From assembly GCA_947467345.1 (NCBI GenBank), contig CANIHD010000009.1, forward strand, positions 1 through 64,000: a stretch of 64,000 nucleotides of DNA, given 5' to 3'. Shown here in pieces: positions 38,307 to 60,106 of the stretch. Position 1 is the stretch's first letter; each line of letters opens with the position of its first letter. The notes below the pieces were generated by a model. It ran no database searches and had not been told where the DNA came from. It saw only the letters and a list, made by a program, of their open reading frames with translations. This DNA comes from Alphaproteobacteria bacterium (GTDB taxonomy: Bacteria > Pseudomonadota > Alphaproteobacteria > Micropepsales > Micropepsaceae). Made by a program: the position numbers and the translations under genes.

Positions 38307-39365
38307 TTAGAGATCCAACGTGTTAGGCGCGAAGATTTCTTCCAACGCCACTTTGCGCGACGCAAGACCCTGCTCGTGCACATATTGGGTCACGGTATCC
38401 AGAACCTTGCGTGAAGACTTGAGCCCATACGGCATCACGTCGCGCTTGAGTGCGGCTTGTGCGTCGGCATCCAGAGCGCCGACTTGGGCGTTGATATCGA
38501 TCCAGGCTTGCGCCTCTTTGCGCACCTGCTCCTTCGCCTTGACGAAGGCGGAGTAGATGTTCAGCGCCACCCATGGGTGTTTTTCGTACAGCGCGCGCTT
38601 CATCACCATTATGTGGTTGATGGGAAACAGCCCTGTCTTGTCGTAATAGCGTTTGGCTTCCGCGGCGCGGTCGGGGAAGAGATATTTGATTCCCGGCTCT
38701 TTCGAGATGTCGACGCGGCTGCGATCGACCAGGTTCTGGTCGGTGATGTAATGCACGCAGGCGTCCAACTCGCCTTTCACCAGCATCTCGCCGATGCTGC
38801 TGGTCGGCGGAATCTGTTCGAGGCTGACGCCCGGCGGCGCCTTGAAGCCGGTGGACGTGCCATGACTCTTGTCGGCATTGCGCTCCATGAACCATTTCAT
38901 GTCGCTCGGCTTCACGCCGAATTCGTGTTCCAGCGCGCCGCGCGCCCAGATGGCGGCGGTTTGTTGAAACTCGGGCACGCCGACGCGCTTGCCCTTCAAA
39001 TCCGATGGCATCTGAATCCCCGACGCCGTGGTGACGATGCATTGCGTGTGGAAAAACGTGCGGAACGTATAGACGGGGAGGCCTACCCAATCGCGATTGC
39101 CAAGCGAGGTCGCGATGGAAAGCGTCGACAGGCTCATTTCGGAAAGGTCGAAATCGCCGTAGCGGAGCTGACGCCAGAACATTTCGGACGGGTGGCAGGT
39201 GGTTGGTACCAGACGAATGCCTTCAACCGGGATGCGCCCTTCGATAATGGGCCGTGTGCGTGGATTGTCGCTCAGCGCTATGGCGAGCTGCAATACGTTG
39301 CGCCCCGCATAGGTTTGATCCTGCACGAGCTTTGTGTTGTAGGAATTTTCTTCGCTCGTCACCAT
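38307..39365 (-). CDS. 4,5-dihydroxyphthalate decarboxylase-like / periplasmic-binding-fold protein, copy 1
   Basis: 352 residues. It belongs to the Pht5-like group that shares the fold of ABC-type binding proteins: LQLAIALSDNPRTRPIIEGRIPVEGIRL, a FDLSEMSLST block, then LKGKRVGVPEFQQTAAIWARGALEHEFGV. It lacks a signal peptide, which supports a cytoplasmic enzyme. Its start overlaps the stop of the third-transcribed Rieske oxygenase by 7 bases, making it the last gene of an MDR-Rieske-Rieske-Rieske-decarboxylase operon. Activity and substrate are inferred from the family. Confidence 0.8.
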   Translation of the reverse strand: MVTSEENSYNTKLVQDQTYAGRNVLQLAIALSDNPRTRPIIEGRIPVEGIRLVPTTCHPSEMFWRQLRYGDFDLSEMSLSTLSIATSLGNRDWVGLPVYTFRTFFHTQCIVTTASGIQMPSDLKGKRVGVPEFQQTAAIWARGALEHEFGVKPSDMKWFMERNADKSHGTSTGFKAPPGVSLEQIPPTSSIGEMLVKGELDACVHYITDQNLVDRSRVDISKEPGIKYLFPDRAAEAKRYYDKTGLFPINHIMVMKRALYEKHPWVALNIYSAFVKAKEQVRKEAQAWIDINAQVGALDADAQAALKRDVMPYGLKSSRKVLDTVTQYVHEQGLASRKVALEEIFAPNTLDL

Positions 39366-40630
39366 TTTGCAATCAGCTCCTTCTCGAAAATGTCGCGCCA
39401 GTTTGTGCCCTTGGGAATGATGCGGTCGTGCGGGCGCACGGTTCTATAGGTGCGGGCGTCGGCGCCCCTAGGCTGTCCGCCGTTTTGAACGACGTTGATC
39501 GCGTCGAGGAGAAGCCGGCGCATCGCCACAACGGCCTTATCGCTGGTGCCAAGGAATTCTTTGGAGCGATCGCAGATCGGGCCCATGCCCTCCTGCAGCG
39601 CGAAATCCTGTGTGTTGATGCCTTCAATGCCGGTGAAGGTTTGGGTCTTCTGCTTGGCGCGGTTGATCATGTAGTCGTTCGATTGATTGCGCTTCAGACG
39701 GAAAGTCCCCGGAATCATTTCGTCGGGACCGCGTCCCATCTCGGATTCGCGCTTCAGTTTCCATTCGTCGCTCATCTCAATGGTGGCGTCGTACGCGCAA
39801 TTCCAATTGTAGACAAAGGTGGAATGGTCATCGATCGGCACCCAAACATGCCCGTCGAGACGCGGCACTACGTTTTTTCCGCCGAACCAGCCCATGACGT
39901 TGGCGCGCATCTGCTGCGCAGGCATCACGTAATGATAGACGCGGAGATAATTGCCTTCGTCGCCCATGTCGCGCGTCGAGACATAGTAATAGCCGTAATC
40001 GGTGCGTTCGACATCGATATGCGGCGAGCGATCGCGCTGGCGCAGCACATCCGTGTTGCCGATATGGTTGTTGTGCGCGAAGGAAGAATGCGCCGTGTCC
40101 AGGCCGCCCTCGAGCCCTTGCAGCCAATTGCAGTTTTCATAGGTCTTGGAGACGTTGCGCTTCTCTGGCGGCGCGCGCAGCCACTCATAGTCAGGCGCGT
40201 CGGGCATTAATTCCTTGGGCCCAAGATAGGCCCACACCACGCCGCCTTTTTCGTAAGTCGGATAGGCGGGCAGCTTGACCTTGGCTTGCAGCGTCGTGCC
40301 CGCGGGCTCCGACGGCATGTCGGTGCAATTGCCGTGACGGTCGAATTTCCAGCCGTGATAGACGCAGCGCAATCCGCATTCTTCGTTGCGCGCGAAGAAC
40401 AGAGGCGCGCGCCTATGCGGGCAATAAGCGTCCACGAGACCGGGATTTCCGTCGCTGTCGCGGAACGCGATGAGGTCCTCCCCCAGAAGGCGCACGCGCA
40501 AGGGCGCGCCGTCGGGTTCGGGTAATTCCGTCGAAAGGCATGCGGGAATCCAATAGCGCCGGAATAGTTCGCCGGCCGGCGTGCCGCGTCCGACGCGCGT
40601 AATTTTGGTGTTTTCTTCCGGTGTCAGCAT
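39359..40630 (-). CDS. Phthalate-4,5-dioxygenase-type Rieske oxygenase, paralog A
   Basis: 423 residues. The Rieske 2Fe-2S ligands are C70, H72, C89 and H92 (CPH...CVYH). The mononuclear iron ligands include D178-TA-H181-SSFA-H186. The domain layout and length match single-component-type oxygenases (phthalate dioxygenase, vanillate demethylase), which need a reductase of the kind encoded at 62306-63292. No beta subunit is encoded. Third of three tandem paralogs in transcription order, 10 bases after paralog B. Confidence 0.9.
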   Translation of the reverse strand: MLTPEENTKITRVGRGTPAGELFRRYWIPACLSTELPEPDGAPLRVRLLGEDLIAFRDSDGNPGLVDAYCPHRRAPLFFARNEECGLRCVYHGWKFDRHGNCTDMPSEPAGTTLQAKVKLPAYPTYEKGGVVWAYLGPKELMPDAPDYEWLRAPPEKRNVSKTYENCNWLQGLEGGLDTAHSSFAHNNHIGNTDVLRQRDRSPHIDVERTDYGYYYVSTRDMGDEGNYLRVYHYVMPAQQMRANVMGWFGGKNVVPRLDGHVWVPIDDHSTFVYNWNCAYDATIEMSDEWKLKRESEMGRGPDEMIPGTFRLKRNQSNDYMINRAKQKTQTFTGIEGINTQDFALQEGMGPICDRSKEFLGTSDKAVVAMRRLLLDAINVVQNGGQPRGADARTYRTVRPHDRIIPKGTNWRDIFEKELIAKW

Positions 40631-40640
40631 AGGCGTCGCT

Positions 40641-41927
40641 CTACCATTGCGTCATCAGATCAGGCGCTAGCACGCTTTGCCAATCGGCGCCCGTCGGCAC
40701 GATATTGTCCCAGGCCCGCACCGAACGATGGCTTGCCGGATTAAGCCCGCGCGGATCGCCGCCTGCTTCCACCACAGCAATCGCTTCAAGAAGGAGACGG
40801 CGCATGGCGACGATGGCCTTGTCGCTGGTGCCGAGGAATTCCTTCGAACGATCGCAGATCGGTTCCATGTTCCCCTGCACCATGTTTTCCTGCAGCGCGA
40901 AGTCTTGAGTGTTGACGCCAGCGATGCCGGTGAACGTCTTCGTCTTCTGCGCGGCGCGGTCGATCATGTAATCGTTGGAGCGGTTCCGCTTCAGGCGAAA
41001 CGTGCCGGCAATAATATCTTCCGGCGCACGGCCAAATTCCGCTTCGTGCTCGGCGATCAATTCCGGCGTCAGCTGTACGTGCGGATCGCAATTGTAGTGA
41101 ATATTGTAGACCCAGGTAGTGACGTCATCAATTGGCACCCAGATGTGTCCAAAATTGCGCGGCACAGCGGTCATCTTGCCATCCCAGGTGCGCACATGGC
41201 CGCGCTGCTGACCGGTCGGCATGAAATAATGATAGGCGCGCACGTAGAAGCCGTCGTCGCCCAGGCTGCGATGCGATGAATAGGTGTAGCCATAATCGGT
41301 GCGTTCGACTTCGATGCGAGGCGCCTTATCGCGCAGGCGAAGTTCGTTTTTGGATGTGAGATTGTTGTTGTGCGCGAACGAGGAATGCGCGGTGTCGAGA
41401 CCGCCTTCCAGTCCTTGCAAATAATTGCAGCCTTCGAAGGTTTTTGAGACATGGCGCTGCGAGTCCGGCGCGCGCATCCACTCGTAATCGGGATGCGGCG
41501 GCTCTTTGTCCTTCGGGCCCATATATGCCCACACCACGCCGCCTTGTTCGAAGCAGGGATAGGCGACGAGTTTCACCCTGGCTTGCAGCGTGGTGCCGGC
41601 AGGTTCGGACGGCATGTCGACGCAATTGCCGGCGCGGTCGAATTTCCAACCGTGATAGACGCAGCGCAGCCCACATTCTTCGTTGCGTGCGAAGAACAAT
41701 GGCGCGCGCCGGTGCGGACAATAGGCATCGACAAGCCCGAGCTGACCATCACTGTCGCGGAAGGCGATGAGGTCCTCGCCCAGCAGGCGTAAGCGCAACG
41801 GAGCGCCATCGGGTTCAGGAAGTTCGCTGGAAAGGCAGGCCGGCAGCCAGTAACGGCGGAGCAGGTTTCCGCACGGGGTCCCCGGACCCACGCGCGTCAC
41901 CCGTTCGTTTTCCGCTGCTGTCAGCAT
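40641..41927 (-). CDS. Phthalate-4,5-dioxygenase-type Rieske oxygenase, paralog B
   Basis: 428 residues. The same ligand set as the neighbours is present: CPHRRAPLFFARNEECGLRCVYH and GGLDTAHSSFAHNN. It differs in the substrate-pocket half, with HVRTWDGKMTAVPRNFGHIWVP and a few extra residues near QENMVQGNMEP. Middle gene of a tandem triplet; 56 bases separate it from paralog C upstream. Start ATG 41927. Confidence 0.9.
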   Translation of the reverse strand: MLTAAENERVTRVGPGTPCGNLLRRYWLPACLSSELPEPDGAPLRLRLLGEDLIAFRDSDGQLGLVDAYCPHRRAPLFFARNEECGLRCVYHGWKFDRAGNCVDMPSEPAGTTLQARVKLVAYPCFEQGGVVWAYMGPKDKEPPHPDYEWMRAPDSQRHVSKTFEGCNYLQGLEGGLDTAHSSFAHNNNLTSKNELRLRDKAPRIEVERTDYGYTYSSHRSLGDDGFYVRAYHYFMPTGQQRGHVRTWDGKMTAVPRNFGHIWVPIDDVTTWVYNIHYNCDPHVQLTPELIAEHEAEFGRAPEDIIAGTFRLKRNRSNDYMIDRAAQKTKTFTGIAGVNTQDFALQENMVQGNMEPICDRSKEFLGTSDKAIVAMRRLLLEAIAVVEAGGDPRGLNPASHRSVRAWDNIVPTGADWQSVLAPDLMTQW

Positions 41928-41983
41928 TGTTAAGCTCCCACGCCGGCCCGTTCAGCAGCCGGCGTTCGGAAAGCCGTGAAGCG

Positions 41984-43252
41984 TTACCATTTCGCTTTCA
42001 GATCGTCCGCCATCGCCTCTTTCCAGTCGGCGTCTTGCGGAATGACGCGGTCATAGGCGCGGATATCGCTATAGATGCTGGGGTTGAGCCCGCGCGGATC
42101 GCCACCGTCTTCGTTCGTCTTGATCGCTTCCAAGAGAATGCGGCGCATGGCGACAATGGCTTTGTCGCTGGTGCCGAGGAATTCTTTCGAGCGATCACAG
42201 ATCGGACCCATGCCTTCCTGAAGCGCAAAGTCCTGCGTGTTGACGCCGAGAATGCCGGTGAAGTTCTTGGTCTTCTGCATCTGCCGGTCGATGAAATAAT
42301 CGTTCGACTGGTTGCGCTTCAGACGGAACGTGCCGGGAATGACGTCGGTCTTGCCGCGTCCGGCAGCCGTTTCGCGCGCTTCAACGGCGTTCAGCTCAAG
42401 CTCGTCCTCGGGATGCGGGCCGGCCATGATGTTGTAAACGTGGACGGTGTAGTCGTCGATCGGCACCCAGATATGGCCGTCGAGACGCGCCGGATTGTTG
42501 CGGGTACCTTCGTAACCGATGATCGACGCGCGCATTTGCTGTGCCGGCATCACAAAGTGATAGACGCGCATATATTTGCCGGCGTCCACTTTGCGCGTTG
42601 ACGCGTAATAGTAGCCGTAATCCGTGCGCTCGACGTCGAGATGGGGCGACTTGTCGTGCTGGCGAAGATTGTCGCGCGCGCCGAGTTTGTTGTTGTGTGC
42701 GAACGATGAGTGCGCGGTGTCGAGGCCGCCTTCGAGCGCCTGCAGATAGTTGCAGTTCTCGAACGTCTTGGAGACGAAGCGGTGCGAGGCCGGCGCGCGG
42801 GTCCATTCGTAGTCGGGTTCCGGCGGCTGTTTGTCTTTCGGGCCCATATAGGTCCAGACCACGCCGCCTTTTTCGACGCAGGGATAGGCCAGCGTCTTCA
42901 CCTTGGCCTGAAGCGTCGTGCCGGCGGGTTCGGACGGCATGTCGACGCAATCGCCGTGGCGGTCGAATTTCCAGCCGTGATAGACGCAGCGCAGGCCGCA
43001 TTCTTCATTGCGCGCGAAAAACATCGGGGCGCGACGGTGCGGACAATAGGCGTCCAACAGCCCGACATCGCCGTTCGAGTCGCGGAATGCGATCAGGTCT
43101 TCGCCCAGGATTCGTACCCGGAGCTGGGCACCGTCCTTCTCCGGCAATTCGCTGGAGAGGGCGAGGGGCCACCAATAGCGGCGGAACATCTTGCCAGCCG
43201 GGGTTCCGGGACCGACGCGCGTGACGCGCACGTTTTCTTCAACCGTAAGCAT
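41984..43252 (-). CDS. Phthalate-4,5-dioxygenase-type Rieske oxygenase, paralog C
   Basis: 422 residues with intact Rieske (C70, H72, C89, H92) and mononuclear iron motifs. The first 110 residues are nearly identical in pattern to paralogs A and B; the region around RASIIGYEGTRNNPARLDGH and the acidic HPEDELELNAVEARE segment is distinct, implying a different substrate. Start ATG 43252 with GGAGA just upstream. First of the three oxygenases after the dehydrogenase gene. Confidence 0.9.
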   Translation of the reverse strand: MLTVEENVRVTRVGPGTPAGKMFRRYWWPLALSSELPEKDGAQLRVRILGEDLIAFRDSNGDVGLLDAYCPHRRAPMFFARNEECGLRCVYHGWKFDRHGDCVDMPSEPAGTTLQAKVKTLAYPCVEKGGVVWTYMGPKDKQPPEPDYEWTRAPASHRFVSKTFENCNYLQALEGGLDTAHSSFAHNNKLGARDNLRQHDKSPHLDVERTDYGYYYASTRKVDAGKYMRVYHFVMPAQQMRASIIGYEGTRNNPARLDGHIWVPIDDYTVHVYNIMAGPHPEDELELNAVEARETAAGRGKTDVIPGTFRLKRNQSNDYFIDRQMQKTKNFTGILGVNTQDFALQEGMGPICDRSKEFLGTSDKAIVAMRRILLEAIKTNEDGGDPRGLNPSIYSDIRAYDRVIPQDADWKEAMADDLKAKW

Positions 43253-56299: not shown

Positions 56300-56764
56300 C
56301 TACGCCGGCTGCGGCCTTAACCCTAGCCAATTTGCCAAAACATGGCCCAAGGAGACGGCGCCCGCGCCACGGGTCAACAAAATCAAGAGCATAGCTACCC
56401 ACTGGATGTGGGTGGGCCAGGCGCCAGGGTAAACGAAGAGCTGAATTACCGCCGTCATGCCGAGAAGTGCCAGCGCCGTCGAGCGCACCAGTAGACCAAG
56501 GACCAAAAGTACGGGCGTGGTCAGCTCCATCGTGGTGGCCATGTAAGCCGCAAATTCGGGAGGCAGCACTGGCACCCGATATTCTTCGGCAAAGAGATAA
56601 AGGGTGGAATCCCAGTTCGCGAGCTTGGTCATGCCGGAATTCCAGAACACCACCGCCAGCGCGAAACGCAACGGCAAGGCTAGAAGCGAATATGGCACCG
56701 TATTCAGCCACGCAATTGCGCGCGCCGGCAAAGCCAGAAGGGAATTCTTCTCCGTGGTGTTCAT
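56300..56764 (-). CDS. DoxX-family protein of the bufferin operon
   Basis: 154 residues, four membrane helices, with LRFALAVVFWNSGMTKLANW, a DoxX-like opening. Its ATG overlaps the stop of bufC (ATGA at 56761-56764), so it is translated with the RiPP genes. In known buf/gig operons the fourth gene is a DoxX protein, possibly providing redox equivalents or membrane functions for maturation or export. Last gene of the operon. Confidence 0.88.
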   Translation of the reverse strand: MNTTEKNSLLALPARAIAWLNTVPYSLLALPLRFALAVVFWNSGMTKLANWDSTLYLFAEEYRVPVLPPEFAAYMATTMELTTPVLLVLGLLVRSTALALLGMTAVIQLFVYPGAWPTHIQWVAMLLILLTRGAGAVSLGHVLANWLGLRPQPA

Positions 56765-57552
56765 TGTTCGTCTCCGCTCGTAGAGGATTGTTCAATTCGG
56801 AAATCGTGAAAGCGCCCGCGCGCGAAATGTTCGGCCATCAGCGCGGTCAGAGTTTCAGGCGCGAGTGTTGATGCCGCTTCGCCTAATGTGGTTCCGGCCA
56901 CGAGGGCTTTGGCAAATTCCCATGCGACGCGATCTTGCCGCGTCACGGCGATGCCGCTCGCGAGACGTTCGACGCAAAGGAAGAATGGTCCTTCGCCAAA
57001 AGCGATTTCATCGAGTGCGTTGTCGTCTTCCGTAAGTACGGCTTGCCAAATGGAATCGACCGGAAACGAAACCTTCAGAAACGTCAAAGCAGGTTGCGGT
57101 ACGAAGACGATTCTCGGGTGATCTTCAGTCTCGATGGCCGCCAGCGCGACGGGATCGAGTGCTTCAGAATCGTCAGCGTGAAGCGCGCGCGACACCGCCC
57201 ATTCCAAACGCGCGAGATCGGGCAGATATGGAAGCGAGGAGGCGGGTGCGAATGAGTCCAGAAAATCGGCAAAGCCTTCGCCGTAGCAGTTTAAATCGGC
57301 TGCTGTAGGAGGATTCGCTTCGACGAAGTGGCGGCCGGCGCCGGTTAAGAATTCTTCGCCGACCACGCGTTGCACGGCCGGATAGGTGAGCCGTAAGGCG
57401 GTGTCGAGCGCCGAAAGATAGGTGCCGCGATAGATGCTCAAGCGCGCCCCGGCGTCGATGCCATTCGCGATGAACATTTCGCCGAGTTCATTTGCCGGCT
57501 GCCCAAGAATGGCGACGGAGAAATGGGTTTGAACCTCACGCAGCGTCGGCAT
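56761..57552 (-). CDS. bufC: DUF2063 partner protein of the MNIO enzyme (BufC/HvfC type)
   Basis: 263 residues. The N-terminal DUF2063 domain shows MFIANGIDAGARLSIYRGTYLSALDTALRLTYPAVQRVVGEEF and HFVEANPP, followed by a C-terminal domain with a late HFARGRFHDF. DUF2063 proteins bind the RiPP precursor leader and present it to the DUF692 enzyme. The start overlaps bufB by 17 bases and the stop overlaps the DoxX start. Confidence 0.9.
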   Translation of the reverse strand: MPTLREVQTHFSVAILGQPANELGEMFIANGIDAGARLSIYRGTYLSALDTALRLTYPAVQRVVGEEFLTGAGRHFVEANPPTAADLNCYGEGFADFLDSFAPASSLPYLPDLARLEWAVSRALHADDSEALDPVALAAIETEDHPRIVFVPQPALTFLKVSFPVDSIWQAVLTEDDNALDEIAFGEGPFFLCVERLASGIAVTRQDRVAWEFAKALVAGTTLGEAASTLAPETLTALMAEHFARGRFHDFRIEQSSTSGDEQ

Positions 57553-58435
57553 GGCGGGCCTCGCTTTGCGTAGCGTCTAAGAGATTTTGCGCCGTCGCGG
57601 CTTCGCCGAGCAGAACGTCCAGCGATGGAATATTGCTGTCCCATTCGATCAGCGTCGGCACAGGGCCAAAAAGCTTCAGCGCTTTTTCGTAAAGCGACCA
57701 CACATCGGCACTTACGCGTGCGCCGTGATCGTCCACACGTATCGAGCGGCCGTTGCCGAGATCGCGCACGCTATGCCCAGCGAGATGGATTTCACCGATC
57801 GCAGAAGCGGGCAGGCCGAGAAGATAGTCTTCCGCGCTCCAGCCGTGATTGCTGGCGCTGACAAAAATATTGTTCACGTCGCAGAGAATGCTGCAGCCAG
57901 TGCGCGCGGCTATCTCGGCCATAAATTCCCATTCGGGAATGGTCGAATGCGTGTACTGCACATAGGTGGACGGATTCTCGATCAATATTTTCCGCGCCAG
58001 CGTGGTCTGTGCCTGATCCATATGGCGGCAGACGACGTCCAGCGCTTCTTCCGTCATGGGCAGCGGCAGAAGATCGGCGAGATAGACTCCGTTCACCGCG
58101 CTCCAAGATAAATGCTCGGAGACAAGTCCGGGTTCAAACCGCGCAATTGCTTCGCGCACACGCTGCAAATGTTCGCGGTCGAGATCGTCGGCACCACCAA
58201 GTGAAAGGCCGACGCCGTGAAGAGAAATCGGTAGGTCACGGCGAATGACGTCGAGCTGCGCCGGATTGGTGCCGCCGCCGAAATAATCTTCGCTATGCAC
58301 CTCTATCCAGGCAATCGCAGGACGCTCTTCCGCGACTTCGCGATGATGTTGAAAGCGCAGCCCGATTCCGGCCGCTGCCGGAATCGAGCCGCACGACGCG
58401 GCGGTATTCGGAGCTTGGGGAGACCGCCGCATCAT
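57536..58435 (-). CDS. bufB: DUF692/MNIO multinuclear iron oxidase (BufB type)
   Basis: 299 residues from ATG 58435, with an AAGGCG site within the end of bufA. The TIM-barrel MNIO family shows AGIGLRFQHH (first His ligands), WIEVHSEDYF, LPISLHGVGLSLGG, SEHLSWSAVNG, LIENPSTY, CDVNNIFVSASNHGW and EIHLAGH, which supply the His/Asp/Glu iron ligands. It oxidises Cys residues of the precursor, to thiooxazoles in characterised bufferins. The frame upstream of 58435 overlaps bufA and is not used. Confidence 0.93.
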   Translation of the reverse strand: MMRRSPQAPNTAASCGSIPAAAGIGLRFQHHREVAEERPAIAWIEVHSEDYFGGGTNPAQLDVIRRDLPISLHGVGLSLGGADDLDREHLQRVREAIARFEPGLVSEHLSWSAVNGVYLADLLPLPMTEEALDVVCRHMDQAQTTLARKILIENPSTYVQYTHSTIPEWEFMAEIAARTGCSILCDVNNIFVSASNHGWSAEDYLLGLPASAIGEIHLAGHSVRDLGNGRSIRVDDHGARVSADVWSLYEKALKLFGPVPTLIEWDSNIPSLDVLLGEAATAQNLLDATQSEARHADAA

Positions 58436-58437
58436 GA

Positions 58438-58740
58438 TTACATCGCCTTCATGGAGCCGCCGGCGATCTTCGCGCACACGCCGGTTGGCACGAGCACGAA
58501 GGACTTCGTATCGCGCATCATGGTGGCTTGGCCGGCGCACGAATGAACGCCTTCGGCGCAATCGTTCTTGGCGGCGGCGTTGATGCCGTAACATTTCTCA
58601 AGCTTGTCGCGTGTCGCGCGGGCCATGTTGTCACGCACGATTTGCGGCATGCCTTGCTGGGCGAAAACGGGAACTTGCGCAGACGCGAGACCGATGGCGC
58701 CGACCAGAGCGGATGCGATGAGAAGATGATTGCTGTTCAT
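58438..58740 (-). CDS. bufA: Bufferin-type RiPP precursor (DUF2282)
   Basis: 100 residues from ATG 58740 (AAAGG site). A Sec-type signal peptide (through FAQQG) precedes a core with exactly four Cys: EKCYG, NDCAEG, HSCAGQ and GVCAKI. This is the DUF2282 pattern of bufferins, whose modified Cys chelate copper in the periplasm. The stop lies 2 bases before the bufB ATG. A sigma-F-type promoter lies about 50 bases upstream. Confidence 0.93.
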   Translation of the reverse strand: MNSNHLLIASALVGAIGLASAQVPVFAQQGMPQIVRDNMARATRDKLEKCYGINAAAKNDCAEGVHSCAGQATMMRDTKSFVLVPTGVCAKIAGGSMKAM

Positions 58741-58789: not shown

Positions 58790-58815
58790 TTCGGTGGCAG
58801 GAACGGGAAGGTTAC
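58790..58815 (-). promoter_or_regulatory. Sigma-F-type promoter of the bufferin operon
   Basis: On the minus strand GTAACC (58815-58810) is followed by exactly 16 bases and CGAA (58793-58790). From memory this equals the -35/-10 consensus described for Caulobacter SigF targets, which include homologous DUF2282 operons. The -10 is about 50 bases upstream of bufA. The divergent gene encodes the matching ECF sigma factor. Confidence 0.82.
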
Positions 58816-58871: not shown

Positions 58872-59471
58872 ATGACGACTGTGGCCGATGCCGAAGAAAC
58901 TTCGCCAGAATTAACACCTGGGCCGGACGAATGGTCGGTCCTGATGGCGCGGGTACAGGCAGGGGATAGCGCCGCTTATCGCCGGCTTCTGCACAGCGTT
59001 ACGCCCTATTTGCGCACGATCTGCGGACACCACCACCGGGACGGGCGCGATGTTGAGGATTCGGTCCAGGACATACTCCTGACCATTCATATGGTGCGGC
59101 ACACCTATGATCCCGCGCGCCCGTTCAAGCCTTGGGCTGCCGCGATCGCCAAGCGCCGGATCATAGACCGCCTTCGGGTCCAGCGCCGCACCCGCGCCCG
59201 TGAAACTTTTTTAGATGCCGGGCACGAAACCTTTCCGGCCCCCGCAACGAACATTGAGGAGGCCGCATCCGAGTCCCGGGCGCTGTACCTTGCCGTGGAG
59301 GCTCTGCCCGAGCGCCAGCGCGAGGCCATTCAGTTGACGAAGTTGAAGGAGATGTCTTTGAAATAGGCGGAGGTGCAGTCCGGTCAGTCGGTGACGGCGC
59401 TGAAGATTGCCACCCACCGTGCGCTCAAGACCTTGCGCCGCATGCTCGAGAAGGGACCGGCCGAACCATGA
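58872..59471 (+). pseudogene. sigF: SigF-like ECF sigma factor interrupted by an in-frame TAG
   Basis: Region 2 (about 45-110) is intact: DVEDSVQDILLTIHMVRHTYDPARPFKPWAAAIAKRRIIDRLR. Region 4 starts ALPERQREAIQLTKLKEMSLK and then meets TAG at 59364-59366. Beyond it the same frame continues AEVQSGQSVTALKIATHRALK to a TGA at 59469-59471, an intact second half of the helix-turn-helix. One base change from GAG (Glu) would explain it. The truncated product (164 residues) lacks the -35-recognition helix. Full length would be about 199 residues, overlapping nrsF by ATGA. Confidence 0.88.
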
Positions 59472-60106
59472 CGAACACGCCAGACCTCATCGAGCAATTG
59501 ACGGCGCACGCCTCTCCGGTGAAGCGCTTGCGCCCGCCGGCCTGGCGCGCGGCGATATGGCTTGCCGTTTACGGGGTCGTGCTCGCGCTTGCGGTTATTG
59601 TGTTCGACGCATGGCCGAATATGCGGATGCGCCTGCAGTCCATGCCTTTTGTGTGGGAAATCGCGGGGACCGTGCTCACCGGCGTGGCTGCCATTGTAGC
59701 CGCGTTTTATCTGGCATTGCCGGACCGCAGCAGGAGCATTGCGCTTCTCGTCGTGCCGCCGCTTGCCGTGTGGCTCGGGAGCAGTGGCTATGGCTGCCTG
59801 GTCAATATCGGCGATGGCGGCGACGGTTGGTTACGCTCGAGCGATTGCGTGATGTTTATTATCGGGACCAGCGTTCCGCTCGGCTTGGCGCTGTATGTTG
59901 TGTTACGCCGCGCTGTGCCGCTCGATCCGCTTGCGGTGCTTGCGGTCGGCGGTCTTGGCGTTGCCGCGCTCAGCGCGGTTGTGCTGCAATTTTTCCATCC
60001 GTTTGACACCACCATTATCGACCTGGTGTTGCACATGGTCGCGGTGCTCACCGTCGTGGCGGTGATGACGACGCTTGGGCGGCGTGGAATGCAGCTGCCG
60101 GCCTAA
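59468..60106 (+). CDS. nrsF: NrsF-type (DUF1109) anti-sigma factor
   Basis: 212 residues with six membrane helices and a short cytoplasmic N-terminus (TPDLIEQLTAHASPVKRLRPP), the DUF1109/NrsF plan. Cysteines in GYGCLVN and SSDCVMF, on loops between helices, correspond to the paired Cys needed for metal sensing in Caulobacter NrsF. It would hold SigF inactive until heavy metals are present. Start ATG overlaps the sigma frame's final TGA, so it is translationally coupled. Confidence 0.9.
   Translation: MTNTPDLIEQLTAHASPVKRLRPPAWRAAIWLAVYGVVLALAVIVFDAWPNMRMRLQSMPFVWEIAGTVLTGVAAIVAAFYLALPDRSRSIALLVVPPLAVWLGSSGYGCLVNIGDGGDGWLRSSDCVMFIIGTSVPLGLALYVVLRRAVPLDPLAVLAVGGLGVAALSAVVLQFFHPFDTTIIDLVLHMVAVLTVVAVMTTLGRRGMQLPA

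Follow-up and report, generated by a model that had tools for sequence, protein, structure and literature searches.

The sigF-type (ECF16) sigma factor gene of the sequenced population of an environmental alphaproteobacterium probably carries a real and recent nonsense allele, null or strongly impaired in function, a reading to which we assign a probability of about 0.72 as a matter of judgement and not of computation. The factor would ordinarily turn on the copper-buffering (bufferin) operon of this organism. Homologues run uninterrupted through the position at which this frame is stopped, and the DNA-binding part of the protein is lost both by sequence and in a structural model. The gene lies in a window of 64,000 nucleotides, the whole stretch of DNA analysed, which is part of contig 9 of a 2.49-Mb genome assembled in 25 contigs and 96% complete.

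The sigF frame and what the stop removes

The sigma frame extends on the forward strand from 58872 to 59471 and comprises 164 codons, a TAG at codon 165 (59364-59366), and an open continuation (59367-59471) of 34 sense codons closed by a TGA at 59469-59471. The truncated ORF (58872-59366, 164 aa) contains region 2 and the beginning of region 4, and the continuation encodes the remainder of region 4. The start of nrsF at 59468 produces a four-base ATGA overlap with the end of the sigma frame. Region 2 (PF04542) was matched with 45.6 bits, above the Pfam cut-off. The portion of region 4 (PF08281) encoded ahead of the TAG covers positions 2-29 of the 54 in the family model and scores 21.8 bits, under the cut-off; reading through the TAG extends the match to positions 2-54 and raises it to 37.8 bits, above the cut-off. 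These results bear out what the earlier note, made from the letters of the DNA, had described: an amber codon in region 4, at which PF08281 is indeed cut, followed by 34 stop-free codons and the ATGA overlap, both confirmed by translation. The proposed identity of the locus as SigF, NrsF and bufferin genes likewise agrees with the Pfam matches, PF06532 for the anti-sigma factor and DUF2282, MNIO enzyme, DUF2063 and DoxX for the operon.

Codon usage was similarly coding-like in the 25 codons on either side of the TAG (3.9 and 3.7), indicating that the interruption is more than a chance one. Among the stops in the window that score at least as high as the sigF TAG, those inspected sit in frames antisense to evident genes, and the further apparently split frames examined there were discarded as antisense shadows. 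Elsewhere in the window, on the reverse strand (39359-43252), three consecutive ORFs of 423, 428 and 422 aa appear to encode paralogous Rieske-type oxygenases with a CPHRRAP...CVYHGWKFD motif, adjoining alcohol-dehydrogenase-like and substrate-binding-protein-like genes.

An AlphaFold2 model of the read-through sigma frame, built on a 29-row alignment and with block pLDDT values of 95-97 around residue 165, places this residue within helix 163-170, with which the helix-turn-helix of region 4 begins. Helix 174-194, a long one whose position marks it as the recognition helix, lies wholly past the TAG in the model, and the alignment to solved ECF sigma factors spans the same stretch as the region-4 helices. 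The 164-residue product would keep region 2 and lack the recognition helix. Region 4 of sigma factors has an established role in recognition of the -35 element, from which we infer that the truncated product is unable to recognise the -35 sequence GTAACC. The preferred explanation is a single nonsense mutation, whose TAG lies ahead of the whole recognition helix; without a sigma factor able to read GTAACC, metals would no longer activate the bufferin operon through sigma-F. nrsF, the bufferin genes and the promoter motif are intact, and there is no paralogue as a substitute.

Homologues at codon 165 and the age of the stop

The position was compared across 118 homologous loci, a set that includes near-duplicates. 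The codon aligned with the TAG was GAG in 65, GAA in 36, GAC in nine, CAG in five, GAT in two and GGG in one, so that residue 165 is Glu in 101 loci, Asp in 11, Gln in five and Gly in one. None of the 118 carries a stop ahead of the natural C-terminus; the sole stop flagged by the tool, in locus L174, is a TGA at the C-terminal end, and no other internal stop was found in homologues matched at an E-value of 1e-25 or better in 385 genomes of the class. The protein of the relatives therefore has no natural end at this position, and the refuting outcome named in the earlier note does not occur. In L084, the nearest homologue from the same genus (61% identical), the codons are TTG AAA GAG where the window reads TTG AAA TAG, so one base change is enough to create the stop. 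The single G-to-T change proposed earlier stands to this extent, whereas the exact ancestral codon is less certain: GAG is likely as the ancestral state, but CAG occurs in five homologues, and it is the nearest rows only that point to GAG. Near-identical SigF proteins (L085, L086 and L088) were also found in Afipia, Ancylobacter and Acidiphilium, which suggests that the SigF-bufferin locus moves between genera.

The sequence past the TAG is as well preserved as its counterpart in intact homologues. Where 90% or more of the homologues agree, the window sequence deviates at none of eight columns after the TAG and at one of 39 before, counts on either side that are typical of intact homologues. 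In a neutral simulation of the 46 conserved matches, the probability that neither a further deviation nor a further stop would arise was 0.033 at 3% divergence, which places decay since the stop below about 3% per site and indicates that the sigma gene, if free to drift, has been so only briefly. The intact continuation and the very recent inactivation suggested by the earlier note were supported by these results.

A base-calling or consensus error in this metagenome-assembled genome, with the gene intact in the organism, is judged, again without computation, to be an unlikely source of the TAG, although it has arguments in its favour: the rest of the locus looks functional, a single base separates the TAG from the codon of the same-genus homologue, and another single-base disruption, located in a short T run, is present in the same assembly. 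Another possible source of the TAG is a minority variant. Against it, no stops interrupt the 39 ABC-transporter and 14 short-chain-dehydrogenase domain matches of the genome, indicating that errors are not frequent in the assembly, and the two disruptions lie in accessory genes, where true pseudogenes would be expected. The second disruption was a chance find: a substrate-binding-protein-like gene on contig 2 (L165:592-1670, C2 about 113319), 36-38% identical to the window ORF at 38307-39365 on the reverse strand, is split by a single-base frameshift, which reflects either accessory gene loss or occasional consensus errors.

Decoding of the TAG and possible substitutes for SigF

The conservation of the continuation, comparable to that in homologues, could also be expected if the TAG were decoded, by programmed or suppressed readthrough, so that a full-length sigma factor is made. 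Recency accounts for this conservation equally well, and several results make readthrough, which the earlier note had considered as amber suppression, highly improbable. None of the 37 tRNA genes found with the Rfam tRNA model and read with ARAGORN has a CUA anticodon, in a list that is incomplete and contains no Ala or Ile-GAT genes; a suppressor tRNA was rejected on this basis, save for a remote chance of one in an unassembled part of the genome. Recoding of UAG was likewise rejected, since release factor 1 (RF1) is present in the genome and TAG is in normal use as a stop, terminating 14 of the 55 long non-overlapping ORFs of the window. Moreover, the stop is common to no homologue, and no Rfam element was matched near it.

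A second copy of SigF was searched for as a possible substitute. The genome contains five genes with sigma region 2, none of which is a SigF paralogue, the other ECF sigma factors matched being 26-28% identical to SigF. One further ECF sigma gene is located past the end of the window, 13 kb from sigF (L075:483-1872; contig C9 of the same genome, about 72482-73871), and adjoins a gene for a 151-aa protein weakly matching PF13801, a heavy-metal resistance family, and a 117-aa ORF. Judged from these matches, this locus resembles a Cnr-type metal-sensing sigma system.

The bufferin operon, known systems and meaning of the allele

The genes around sigF appear in working order, as had been claimed for nrsF and the bufferin promoter. 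Directly downstream of the sigma gene, as in the ECF16/SigF group, the NrsF-family anti-sigma gene (59468-60106, forward strand; PF06532, 74.9 bits) encodes an intact protein of 212 aa, in which C110 and C127, the two cysteines shared by 92 of 93 homologues, are both present. NrsF of the window has Ile91 and Val95 where at least 95% of the homologues have Trp and Pro; decay of nrsF was rejected as an explanation, since deviations of this extent occur in 15-38% of homologues, according to the threshold chosen. Divergently from sigF, on the reverse strand, a complete Buf1 cluster is found in the expected order: bufA1 (58438-58740), a bufferin precursor of the DUF2282 family with a signal-peptide-like N-terminus and four cysteines; bufB1 (57536-58435), a full-length MNIO enzyme (PF05114); bufC1 (56761-57552), the DUF2063 partner protein; and bufD1 (56300-56764), of the DoxX family. 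In front of bufA, an exact copy of the sigma-F promoter motif GTAACC-N16-CGAA, as defined in Caulobacter (PMC3511200), is located at 58790-58815 on the reverse strand. The exact motif has two matches in the genome, of which the bufA copy is the only intergenic one; the other falls within a long ORF that has cytochrome-like CxxCH motifs, and was taken as chance, a control pattern giving five matches, so a wider sigma-F regulon was rejected. The motif, oriented towards bufA and with a spacer of 15-17 and no more than one mismatch, was present in 47 of the 53 homologous loci in which bufA is divergent. The site at the target operon thus persists despite the damage to the sigma factor that reads it.

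With region 2 (45.6 bits) and nrsF both intact, the 164-residue product might have been retained as a regulator, acting as a decoy that binds NrsF or core RNA polymerase. Such a short form occurs in none of the 118 homologous loci, and no full-length SigF is left to be influenced, so that titration of NrsF by a decoy would set no sigma factor free; we consider this role improbable. It is very doubtful, too, that a SigF devoid of region 4 has been selected for because its binding to NrsF or to the core enzyme would put the bufferin module under constitutive control or that of another sigma factor. A recent loss of function of sigF remains our preferred reading.

The arrangement closely parallels SigF-NrsF (CC3253-CC3252) of Caulobacter crescentus, an ECF16 system with the same order of sigma and NrsF genes, the GTAACC-N16-CGAA motif and the four-gene operon CC3254-CC3257 (PMC3511200). 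Caulobacter sigF is intact and functional, whereas region 4 of the window gene is cut by the TAG, and in contrast to Caulobacter no sigma-F motif was found in front of sigF in the window. In Sinorhizobium meliloti, the ECF16 module rpoE7-ecfR7 is a local one, targeting the adjacent bufferin-type operon SMb20530-20527 and its own operon, and is missing from some strains (PMC6180224). Cupriavidus metallidurans has the same divergent organization of sigma and anti-sigma genes and a bufferin-type operon (rpoQ-rsqA/gigPABT; PMC10304878). Both rpoE7 and rpoQ are intact, unlike sigF of the window. Mutants of C. metallidurans deleted for rpoQ, the homologue of sigF, still expressed the divergent gig (bufferin) genes, and in metal-treated cells the deletion raised this expression (PMC10304878). 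Silence of the bufferin operon should therefore not be assumed here, and by analogy it may still be transcribed at a basal level or by another route.

The MNIO enzyme, NrsF and SigF co-occur in two genomes of the genus (G003 and G005) and in G000, and four other genomes of the genus, three of them less than 90% complete, have neither the MNIO enzyme nor a close SigF homologue. The absence of the module from these genomes and from some S. meliloti strains indicates that it is dispensable, which makes loss of its regulator plausible. Nonsense alleles of sigma factor genes are well documented for rpoS: in Escherichia coli, codon 33 reads either TAG or GAG, the protein of one natural isolate is truncated at its C-terminus and of low activity, and stops created by one base change inactivate the gene in natural and laboratory strains (PMC2700278). 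The sigF case is of the same kind, a one-base stop inactivating a sigma factor, in an ECF16 protein and thus in a different sigma family, with the difference that the rpoS polymorphism has been shown within a species and the sigF stop is known from one genome.

Taken together, the TAG is most likely an ordinary loss-of-function event and not a new decoding trick, and no new mechanism is indicated by it. It also carries a warning, as automatic annotation could call a working SigF-bufferin module at this locus. If real, the allele would offer a snapshot of the first step in the loss of an inducible metal-stress regulator, taken at a stage when the target operon, promoter and anti-sigma factor remain undamaged, and would allow asking whether bufferin operons work without a dedicated sigma factor.
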